Notes under the pieces: model-generated
The model's database searches: none
What the model was told of the DNA's origin: nothing
What the model saw: only the letters and a program-made list of their open reading frames with translations
Made by a program: the position numbers and the translations under genes
Shown here: one piece after another, positions 51,908 through 54,527 of the stretch
How positions within the stretch are numbered: position 1 is the stretch's first letter
Layout: each line of letters opens with the position of its first letter
Assembly: GCA_949841355.1 (NCBI GenBank)
Contig: CATKZP010000006.1
Coordinates: 1-64,000, forward strand
Direction: 5' to 3'
Length of the DNA stretch: 64,000 nt
Source of the DNA: an uncultured Oscillospiraceae bacterium
GTDB taxonomy: Bacteria > Bacillota > Clostridia > Oscillospirales > Oscillospiraceae

Positions 51908-51962
51908 CGGGCGCAATATAGAGCGGGGCCGCTGCCGGCCCCATAGATAAGGAGTGCGGAAT

Positions 51963-54527
51963 TTGAAGCGGTTGACCATCGGGATGCTGGCCCACGTGGA
52001 CTCGGGCAAGACCACCCTGTCCGAGGCCATGCTGTTCCGGGCCGGCGCGGTGCGCAGGCTGGGGCGGGTGGACCACGGGGACGCCTTTCTGGACACCGAG
52101 GAGCAGGAGCGGGAGCGGGGCATCACCATCTTCTCCAAGCAGGCGCGGCTGGAGTGGAAGGACTGCCGGATCACGCTGCTGGACACCCCCGGCCACGTGG
52201 ACTTCTCCGCCGAGACGGAGCGGGCGGTGCAGGTGATGGACTACGCCGTGCTGCTCATCAGCGGCTCGGACGGGGTGCAGGGCCACACCGAGACCCTCTG
52301 GAAGCTGCTGGAGCGCCACCGTGTGCCCACCTTCCTGTTCATCAACAAGATGGACCAGCCGGACACCGACAGAGGGGCGCTGATGGCCCAGCTGCGGGCG
52401 CGGCTGAGCGACGGCTGCGCCGACTTCTCCGGCGATTGGGGAGAGGCGGTGGAGCAGGCCGCGCTGTGCGATGAGGAGCTGATGGAGCGCTACCTGGAGA
52501 CGGGGGAGCTGGACGACGCCGACCTGTCCGCCCTGGTGGTGGAGCGCAGGCTCTTCCCCTGCTGGTTCGGCGCGGCGCTGAAGGTGGAGGGGGTGGACGG
52601 GCTGCTGGACGGGCTGGCGCGGTTCGCCCTGGAGCCGGACTGGCCGGAGCGGTTCGCCGCCCGGGTGTTCAAAATTTCCCGGGACGACAGGGGGGAGCGG
52701 CTCACCTGGCTCAAGGTCACCGGGGGCGCGCTGAAGGTGCGGGACGCGGTGAAGGGCTCGGGCTGGGAGGAGAAGGCCACCCAGCTGCGCCTCTACTCGG
52801 GGGCCAAGTTCGTCCCCGCCGACAAGGCCCCCGCGGGGACGGTGTGCGCCGTCACCGGCCTGAGCCAGACCCGCGCGGGCCAGGGCCTGGGCGGGGAGGA
52901 GGACTGGGAGGGGCCTCAGCTGGAGCCGGTGCTGGCCTATCAGGTGCTGCCCCCGGCGGGGGGCGACGTGCACACCCTGCTGGGCCAGCTGCGGATTTTG
53001 GAGGAGGAGGACCCTCAGCTCCGGGTGGAGTGGAACGAGGCGCTGGGGGAGATCCACGTCCATCTCATGGGAGAGGTTCAGCTGGAGGTGCTCTCCCGGC
53101 TGATGGAGCGGCGGTTCGGCGTGGAGGTGGCCTTCGGCCCCGGGCGCATCGTCTACCTGGAGACCATCGCCGCCCCGGCGGAGGGGGTGGGCCATTTTGA
53201 GCCCCTGCGCCACTACGCCGAGGTCCACCTGCTGCTGGAGCCGCTGGAACGGGGGGCGGGGCTGGAGCTGGACACCGCCTGCTCAGAAAACGTGCTGGAC
53301 CGGAACTGGCAGCGGCTTATCCTCACCCACTTGATGGAGAAAATCCACCTGGGCGTGCTCACCGGGTCGCCCATCACCGATATGAAGATCACCCTGCTCA
53401 CCGGCCGCGCCCACCTCAAGCACACCGAGGGAGGCGACTTCCGCCAAGCCACCTACCGGGCGGTGCGCCAGGGGCTGATGTGCGCCAAAAGCGTGCTGCT
53501 GGAGCCCTGGTACAGCTTTCGGCTGGAGGTGCCTACGGGGAACGTGGGCCGGGCCATGACGGATTTGCAGCGCATGGGGGCGCAGTTCCAGCCGCCGGAG
53601 AGTGCGGGGGAGCGCGCGGTGCTTGCCGGCAGCGTCCCCGTGTCCGAGCTGGGGGGCTACTGGACGGAGGTGGCGGCCTACACCGGGGGGCGGGGGCGGC
53701 TGTCCTGCGCGGTGGAGGGCTACCGCCCTTGCCACAAGGCAGAAGAGGTGATTTCCCAGTCGGGCTACGACCCGGAGCGGGACGTGGATAACCCCGCCGG
53801 GTCGGTGTTCTGCGCCCACGGGGCGGGGTTCAACGTGCCCTGGGACGAGGTGCGCGCCCATATGCACGTGGACAGCGGCTGGAAGCCCCGCCAGGAAGGT
53901 CCCGCCCGGGAGGCGTCCGCTCCCGTGGGCGGCGGCGCCATGAGCTACGAGTCCCGGGCGGCGCTGGACAAGGAGCTGGAGGCCATCTTCGAGCGGGTCT
54001 ACGGCCCTATGAAGCCCCACGCTTTTCGCCCGGCGCAGAAAAGCGCCCCGCCCAAGCCCAGACCCTGGAAGGGGCTGAAGCTCCGGGACGGGGAGGACTA
54101 CCTGCTGGTGGACGGCTATAACATCATCCACGCGTGGGACGAGCTGCGCGCCCTGAGCCGGGAGGATTTGGACAGCGCCCGAGAACGGCTCATCCACCGG
54201 CTGCGCAATTATCAGGGGTGGAAGCGGTGCAAGGTCATCGTGGTGTTCGACGCCTACAAGGTGAAGGGGAGCCCGGGCAGCGTGGAGCGGCTGGGAGACC
54301 TGTTCGTGGTGTATACCAAGGAGGCGGAGACGGCGGATATGTATATCGAAAAGACCACCTACGCCCTGGCCAGGGAGCGCAGGGAGCACCGGGTGCGGGT
54401 GGCCACCTCCGACGGGCTGGAGCAGATGATTATTCTGGGCCACGGGGCGGTGCGTATGCCCGCCGCCGAGCTGGAGTTCGAGGTGCGCCAGGCGGAGCAG
54501 GAGATCCGCCGGATCATCGGCGGCTGA
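51963..54527 (+). CDS. TetM/EF-G-like translation GTPase fused to Rae1-type NYN nuclease
   Basis: 854 residues from TTG 51963 (LKRLTIGMLAHVDSGKT), chosen for AAGGAG 8 nt upstream. Residues 1 to about 640 have the ribosomal-protection/EF-G plan: G1 AHVDSGKTT, G2 ERGITI, G3 DTPGH, G4 NKMD, then EF-G-like domains II-V. After a linker (KSAPPKPRPWKG), about residues 690-854 match Rae1/YacP NYN endonucleases: LLVDGYNIIHAWDELR, VIVVFDAYKV, VVYTKEAETADMYIEK and VATSDGLEQMII, with the acidic active-site residues kept. Rae1 is known to cut mRNA in the ribosomal A site. The fusion would link a ribosome-binding GTPase to that cut. It is not evidence of tetracycline resistance. Confidence 0.92.
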   Translation: MKRLTIGMLAHVDSGKTTLSEAMLFRAGAVRRLGRVDHGDAFLDTEEQERERGITIFSKQARLEWKDCRITLLDTPGHVDFSAETERAVQVMDYAVLLISGSDGVQGHTETLWKLLERHRVPTFLFINKMDQPDTDRGALMAQLRARLSDGCADFSGDWGEAVEQAALCDEELMERYLETGELDDADLSALVVERRLFPCWFGAALKVEGVDGLLDGLARFALEPDWPERFAARVFKISRDDRGERLTWLKVTGGALKVRDAVKGSGWEEKATQLRLYSGAKFVPADKAPAGTVCAVTGLSQTRAGQGLGGEEDWEGPQLEPVLAYQVLPPAGGDVHTLLGQLRILEEEDPQLRVEWNEALGEIHVHLMGEVQLEVLSRLMERRFGVEVAFGPGRIVYLETIAAPAEGVGHFEPLRHYAEVHLLLEPLERGAGLELDTACSENVLDRNWQRLILTHLMEKIHLGVLTGSPITDMKITLLTGRAHLKHTEGGDFRQATYRAVRQGLMCAKSVLLEPWYSFRLEVPTGNVGRAMTDLQRMGAQFQPPESAGERAVLAGSVPVSELGGYWTEVAAYTGGRGRLSCAVEGYRPCHKAEEVISQSGYDPERDVDNPAGSVFCAHGAGFNVPWDEVRAHMHVDSGWKPRQEGPAREASAPVGGGAMSYESRAALDKELEAIFERVYGPMKPHAFRPAQKSAPPKPRPWKGLKLRDGEDYLLVDGYNIIHAWDELRALSREDLDSARERLIHRLRNYQGWKRCKVIVVFDAYKVKGSPGSVERLGDLFVVYTKEAETADMYIEKTTYALARERREHRVRVATSDGLEQMIILGHGAVRMPAAELEFEVRQAEQEIRRIIGG

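Follow-up and report, generated by a model that had tools for sequence, protein, structure and literature searches.

A chromosomal gene joining an EF-G-like GTPase to a Rae1-type nuclease in an Oscillospiraceae bacterium, a candidate translation-quality factor that seems to have replaced stand-alone Rae1

Introduction

Rae1 (YacP) of Bacillus subtilis is a translation-dependent mRNA endonuclease that cuts in the ribosomal A site (PMC10100781, PMC6613710), and it is unusual in that it needs translation to find its target (PMC10100781). TetM-type GTPases also bind the A site, where Pro509 of TetM is placed over the bound tetracycline (PMC7456112), and the C-terminal helix of TetM matters as well (PMC4750697). 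Tet proteins carrying a YacP-like NYN domain were described by Atkinson 2015 from ten clostridial species and were read there as a resistance mechanism (PMC4342817). Here we analyze such a gene on the forward strand of a 64,000-nucleotide stretch from an uncultured Oscillospiraceae bacterium (GenBank assembly GCA_949841355.1, contig CATKZP010000006.1, positions 1 to 64,000; the whole stretch is hereafter called the window), which encodes an EF-G-like GTPase followed in the same chain by a Rae1-type NYN domain.

The window gene has the same architecture as the described Tet-NYN fusions and is a member of that set. Whereas ten species were recorded there, we count, in 393 genomes of the class, at least 125 frames that are 780 aa or longer, and whereas the set was read as a resistance mechanism, here the nuclease appears to have a single origin, the GTPase falls outside the TetM/TetO clade and the fusion has apparently replaced rae1. 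What is added here is the scale, the single nuclease origin, the rae1 replacement, the distinction from Tet and the existence of a wider, unfused subfamily. A preliminary description of the locus, made from its letters alone, knew of no functional study of such a fusion, and we likewise found none among the papers listed by full-text searches of open-licence PubMed Central, but the architecture itself was already in print.

Results

As shown in Table 1, Pfam domains follow one another in the order GTP_EFTU, EF-G-type domains II-V and NYN_YacP, which bears out the preliminary description of an EF-G-like GTPase with a C-terminal Rae1/YacP domain; the EFG_IV match covers residues 398-511, and the NYN_YacP match reaches 157.7 bits against a cut-off of 24.6. 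The open reading frame (51954/51963-54527, +) is free of internal stops. Residue numbers are those of P0001, read from GTG 51954 and 3 residues longer than the version read from TTG 51963. As a start codon, TTG 51963, where the preliminary description also begins the gene, fits best because it has AGGAG 8 nt upstream and because an ATG, followed by AAG or AAA, stands at the matching place in 8 of the 10 near relatives examined (of the other two, locus L035 does not show this and L045 is cut at that place). The genome itself (2.76 Mb, 44 contigs, 94.6% complete) has a single NYN_YacP match, which is the window fusion, and three proteins with EF-G domain IV, namely a 704-aa EF-G beside a tuf gene, a 694-aa EF-G-like protein and the window fusion.

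A survey of related genomes, as the preliminary description had proposed, found the joined architecture to be common. NYN_YacP is present in 64 of the 148 genomes of the window's order, and in all 64 the best match shares a contig with, and is 354-717 bases away from, a conserved stretch that follows domain V in this GTPase and that we call the tail, so that 64/148 carry the fusion. The frames measure 833-1334 aa, except in genomes G465 (465) and G489 (478), and G495 has a second NYN fragment of 47 residues on another contig. Five further genomes of the order have an unfused GTPase and no NYN match, and 79/148 have neither. Across the 393 genomes of the class, NYN was found in 250, the tail in 165 and both in 158; among the 150 of 165 tail-positive genomes with a listed frame, 125 frames are of at least 780 aa, 19 are of 600-779 aa and 6 are shorter, and one of the 19 (G062, 734 aa) is fused, since the NYN lies within the frame. 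The joint counts (158 both, 7 tail only, 92 NYN only and 136 neither) give an odds ratio of 33, uncorrected for relatedness and mostly due to the fusion itself joining tail and NYN. Of the 18 class genomes with a listed unfused frame, 6 lack an NYN match; the other 12 have one elsewhere, in 10 cases with a stand-alone frame listed. At the phylum level (219 genomes), the tail was found in 18, of which 16 are fused with a single NYN match and 2 are unfused with a separate NYN. In the Bacillus-like order of G678, whose Rae1 shares 63% identity with the B. subtilis protein, the tail occurs in 9/150 genomes, always in unfused frames, and NYN in 150/150. Within the class, many families include genomes with the fused form. 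Because fused frames occur in many genomes, single-contig ones (G022, G191 and G383) included, the fusion is real and no assembly artefact.

The nuclease half aligns to B. subtilis YacP/Rae1 (5MQ8/5MQ9) with an E value of 2e-25 and is 45% identical to the product of the rae1 gene, so that the match to Rae1/YacP anticipated in the preliminary description is present, with its acidic residues, in a protein whose fused form is widespread among relatives. The acidic positions corresponding to B. subtilis D7, D53, D81, E85 and D104, which we take to be catalytic, are invariant in 83/83 fused and 33/33 stand-alone NYN sequences. Thus, the window NYN resembles Rae1 in belonging to NYN_YacP and in having each of the five invariant acidic residues, and it differs in being the C terminus of a GTPase encoded at another locus, whereas Rae1 is a separate protein of 170 aa. 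Between the window gene and ten relatives at 74-86% identity, the ratio of nonsynonymous to synonymous substitution rates (dN/dS; Nei-Gojobori method, own script) ranged from 0.16 to 0.32 for the GTPase and from 0.13 to 0.37 for the NYN and was raised, at 0.29-0.55, in the tail plus linker; the values for GTPase and NYN show that both halves are under purifying selection.

The fused and the stand-alone Rae1 nearly exclude each other. Only 5 of the 250 NYN-positive class genomes have more than one NYN match, and G284 is the sole genome of the 393 with both an intact fused and an intact stand-alone NYN, the latter between rlmB and sigH. In the B. subtilis and Clostridioides difficile records read, the order is cysS-mrnC-(thyX)-rlmB-rae1-sigH; rlmB and sigH also flank a stand-alone rae1 in G678, G697, G259 and G206, and in 4 genomes of family f23 the gene lies beside sigH. 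The window NYN, in contrast, sits behind recG, and a search of 39 genomes of the order gave 30 loci, the window's own genome included, none of which has a rae1 closer than 1.5 kb to rlmB. G370 encodes a fused protein and, between rlmB and sigH, also carries two short pieces of NYN that lie in different frames (G370:C56:81209-81444; L124, L128), the remains of a broken rae1 in a fusion-bearing genome and so a snapshot of gene replacement. The states both (G284), relic (G370) and fused only are as expected from takeover by another gene, and the fusion therefore seems to have replaced the separate rae1 in this lineage. The second NYN matches of the remaining three genomes (G120, G174 and G208) fall below the Pfam cut-off; the three genomes are of one genus, and each has a frame of 163-165 aa (L127, L126 and L125, respectively) whose NYN_YacP match is weak and spans 47 residues, possibly a further NYN-like family.

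In a tree of 71 NYN sequences (5 duplicate rows removed), a branch with 100/99 support sets 38 fused sequences and the stand-alone L027 apart from the remaining 32 stand-alone sequences, and the two G284 copies are divided between its sides. Because the fused sequences share one side, a single joining of the nuclease, followed by at least one split, is the simplest account. L027 (G209:C1:394804-395292) is a 190-aa stand-alone NYN; neither rlmB nor sigH was matched within the 6.5-kb stretch examined, and L027 is a probable split-off from the fusion.

The GTPase half contains the motifs AHVDSGKTT, RGITI, DTPGH and NKMD, including the PGH histidine, and has an EF-G-like domain layout in Pfam, as the preliminary description had it; most G1-G4 residues are invariant among 38 aligned fused proteins. 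Its further naming as TetM-like does not hold in the strict sense. The best NCBIfam match, tet_protect, scored 401 bits against a cut-off of 775, and among the best 25 of 33 NCBIfam families no Tet, EF-G or other named-factor model reaches its cut-off, the small_GTP domain model alone doing so. The domain-IV loops read GHFEPLRHYAEVH and AHLKHTEGGDFRQAT, and their residues are mostly invariant in the 38 rows; the loop-I region is GHFEPLRHYAEVH or a close variant throughout the subfamily, and the domain-IV tip is of the KHT.GGD type in fused and unfused members alike, with small variations (VHTVGGD in Ligilactobacillus salivarius), whereas the tips of TetM, TetO, TetS and a Tet36-like protein are SPVSTP and that of an OtrA-like protein is APSSTA. 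Where loop III of TetM has SPV, the window protein reads LKH. The EF-G tip histidine (YH) aligns with a histidine of the subfamily (AH, SH or NH; S in L. salivarius), at which position TetM has Y. In the tail, which overlaps the end of domain V and occupies the place of the TetM C-terminal extension, C, S, F, C, G, W and H positions are invariant in the 38 fused rows; by alignment, the tail is absent from TetM and EF-G. Within the tail (53730-53867) are an invariant Cys, Cys and His plus one His that is Lys in many unfused relatives, and those with this Lys often carry a Cys after the last His, making the Cys/His set a possible metal site with a swapped ligand.

Consistent with these differences, a tree of 44 GTPase rows separated 40 fused and unfused members of the subfamily from TetM, TetO, OtrA-like and EF-G sequences with 100/99 support. 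This tree omits G277, the Tet36-like, EFG2 and TetS sequences, 3 near-duplicate unfused rows and 13 fused rows; a first tree of 64 rows held the very long row G277, whose frame is suspect. Its 25 fused rows form a 100/100 group that also contains the unfused L. salivarius protein, and on account of this placement the fused rows need two changes in the GTPase tree; a single fused clade was nevertheless not rejected by the approximately unbiased test (p-AU 0.387), and with long branches present the finer placing is unsure. The L. salivarius GTPase may have lost its NYN. On these comparisons, the GTPase belongs to a subfamily apart from TetM/TetO and EF-G that exists also in unfused form.

Compared with TetM/TetO, the window protein has in common the GTPase and EF-G-like domains II-V (∼29% identity over residues 2-590) and differs in its domain-IV loops, its tail in place of the C-terminal extension, the added NYN and the shortfall against tet_protect. 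Unfused members of the subfamily (for example, L. salivarius WP_052757141 and those of G678, G697 and G259) have loops and tail of the same type and 41-50% identity but end after the tail, with no NYN attached. EF-G is the translocase of the ribosome; the 704-aa EF-G of the window's own genome (contig C1) shares the domain layout and the aligned loop-III histidine (compare YH with AH), but its identity is 26%, and it has neither tail nor NYN.

The names given to such proteins vary. The preliminary description expected automatic annotation as tetracycline resistance, and this is the case for a fused protein of Agathobacter rectalis ("TetM/TetW/TetO/TetS family ...") but not for that of Monoglobus ("translation factor GTPase family protein"). 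The A. rectalis gene (L259:643-3444, on a 252-kb plasmid) lies beside a BrnT/CopG-type toxin-antitoxin pair. On L. salivarius plasmid pR1, the unfused gene (L129:3995-5929) lies beside rpsN, and its product is annotated as TetM/TetW/TetO/TetS-type resistance, yet its loops and tail are those of the other subfamily. Among 1375 matching plasmid records, 2 cover at least 80% of the query, and the L. salivarius record covers 75%. Twelve C. difficile plasmid records have an NYN match; the sole one read (L137, NZ_CP149721.1) carries cysS, rlmB, rae1, sigH and tuf on a 97-kb record labelled plasmid, and such records may be pieces of chromosome.

The fusion gene lies downstream of recG (identified by its domains) on the same strand, with a 55-bp gap, and upstream of genes for an RpiR-family regulator, a glucosamine-6-phosphate isomerase-type protein and an amidohydrolase. 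A direct search found recG in 12 of 80 fused loci, many with short flanks, and in 11 it ends just upstream of the fusion. No conserved gene neighbors emerged from 81 loci (the commonest neighbor cluster was present in 10/81), a rough result because the open reading frame picker favors antisense frames in GC-rich loci. A defense role was considered and dropped, as there was no PADLOC match. The recG-fusion gap holds a GC-rich hairpin (51925-51945); its sequence is not conserved among the 10 relatives looked at, and 5 of these have a different, small GGCGG/CCGCC hairpin at the same gap.

Table 1. Positions of the fusion gene and its parts in the window
Feature	Position	Strand	Basis or remark
GTPase-NYN fusion gene, whole	51963..54527	+	854 aa from TTG; no internal stop
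Putative ribosome-binding site AGGAG	51950..51954	+	8 nt before TTG 51963
GTPase (G) domain, residues 7-223	51972..52622	+	Pfam GTP_EFTU 5.6e-49; G1-G4 motifs
EF-G-type domains II, III, IV, residues 234-511	52653..53486	+	Pfam EF-G_D2, EFG_III, EFG_IV
EF-G-type domain V, residues 514-595	53493..53738	+	Pfam EFG_C 4.8e-17
Subfamily tail GYxPCH...NPxGSVFCAHGAGFxVxW...MH	53703..53876	+	alignment A1 profile match 9.1e-34
Linker, ∼67 residues	53892..54092	+	poorly conserved except a short DKELxxIFExxYGP stretch
NYN (Rae1/YacP) endoribonuclease domain, residues 717-852	54102..54509	+	Pfam NYN_YacP 3.4e-46
NYN acidic residues D720, D766, D795, E799, D820	in 54102..54509	+	Rae1 alignment, invariance

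Discussion

We consider that the fusion is probably, although by no means certainly, a chromosomal translation-quality factor with a housekeeping role, in which GTP would time the cleavage of mRNA at stalled ribosomes. What the sequences themselves speak for is the architecture, the conservation of active-site residues in both halves, purifying selection, one origin of the nuclease and the replacement; the trigger by a stalled ribosome, the binding to it, the cleavage of mRNA and the order of these events we infer. The GTPase half would recognize a ribosome whose A site is empty or blocked and bind it with GTP, and domain IV would remodel or clear the decoding site. GTP hydrolysis would then release the GTPase half, whereupon the tethered NYN would enter the same A site and cut the mRNA, so that ordinary rescue of the freed ribosome could follow. 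As the two halves should need one site, they would act in sequence rather than together, or else the NYN would act on a neighboring, collided ribosome instead of taking over by hand-over. The FCxHGxG-type and NYN motifs stand 87-156 residues apart in the 80 full-length fused proteins aligned (13 of 93 fused loci, cut by short flanks, being left out) and 92 apart in the window protein, which would in principle be long enough for such a hand-over. In this lineage, the fusion would have taken over the job of stand-alone Rae1. The role suggested in the preliminary description, with GTP hydrolysis placing or releasing an A-site nuclease, is compatible with these findings.

Several observations weigh against this proposal. 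Nine genomes have an unfused GTPase and no NYN match (G025, G028, G054, G068, G178 and G288 in the class survey and also G405, G463 and G518 in that of the order), and G203 is a possible tenth, its 293-aa frame maybe cut by a contig end; the GTPase must therefore be of some use by itself. In the order of G678, on the other hand, 141/150 genomes have NYN without the GTPase, and with NYN in all 150 and the GTPase in 9, Rae1 generally needs no GTPase. A strict co-dependence of the two halves is thus rejected by both counts. Because 79/148 genomes of the window's order have neither, the function would also be dispensable. Finally, the window NYN is without the last ∼30 residues of Rae1 (the match ends at Rae1 residue 138), and the stretch that is absent includes R166, R166P being among the B. 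subtilis rae1 suppressor mutations judged to cause loss of function (PMC6613710). The domain was called complete in the preliminary description, which is right for the core with all its acidic residues but not for the C-terminal end, as Pfam NYN_YacP is covered at positions 1-135 of 166. The window protein is one of 31 among the 80 fused proteins measured (L093 lies outside this measurement) that end at most 146 residues after the NYN start, and the remaining, longer forms keep a C-terminal extension after the NYN.

Both counts, together with the long and variable linker and the one lineage that seemingly split its nuclease off again (L027/G209), would also suit a fusion of convenience, in which the NYN is a Rae1 that targets the ribosome by itself, the GTPase serves some other purpose and the single chain ensures equal amounts of the two. 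However, the join is kept across many families, only a single apparent fission was found among the 33 stand-alone NYN sequences in the tree, and as no conserved neighborhood was found, rough as that comparison is, it is the fusion and not an operon that is kept. We regard a fusion of convenience as rather unlikely. That the NYN half trims rRNA or tRNA, with the GTPase guiding it to the ribosome, would follow an older proposal for NYN domains cited by Atkinson 2015 (PMC4342817), but the characterized relative, B. subtilis Rae1, cuts mRNA during translation (PMC10100781, PMC6613710), and it is that very rae1 gene that the fusion appears to replace, making such trimming highly improbable.

A role in antibiotic protection, in which the GTPase would confer resistance to tetracycline or another A-site drug and the added RNase would clear the blocked ribosome, is what Atkinson 2015 proposed (PMC4342817), and it agrees with the TetM-like domain order, with tet_protect being the best NCBIfam match and with the presence of fused copies on secondary replicons of A. 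rectalis (252 kb) and Monoglobus (518 kb). Nor does loss of the SPV loop exclude it, because loop III alone is not decisive: TetM with S508A/P509A/V510A can be active (PMC4750697). On the other hand, among the best 25 of 33 NCBIfam families the Tet models stay below their cut-offs and small_GTP alone passes, the SPV loop and the C-terminal extension are both replaced by conserved, unrelated sequence, the GTPase stands in a separate clade and near-full-length plasmid matches are scarce; these points, taken together, make drug protection less likely. Moreover, both fused plasmid records read are typed non-mobilizable, fused forms occur in many families of the class, and only 55 bp separate recG from the start of the fusion, whereas a leader peptide gene precedes TetM in the record compared. 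Drug protection therefore seems to us an unlikely function, and GTP-timed cleavage at stalled ribosomes remains the reading we prefer.

Taken further, the fusion could be a bacterial GTP-driven no-go-decay machine, and the GTPase subfamily, not before separated from Tet, a dedicated partner of Rae1, a proposal that we put forward tentatively and with more doubt than conviction. Many clostridial families have kept, instead of the free Rae1, one that is naturally joined to an EF-G-like GTPase, which makes the way in which Rae1 reaches the A site testable in one protein. Further, some genes of commensals that are named for tetracycline resistance, such as the fused one of A. rectalis, may be housekeeping translation factors, and if they are, resistance counts would be inflated.

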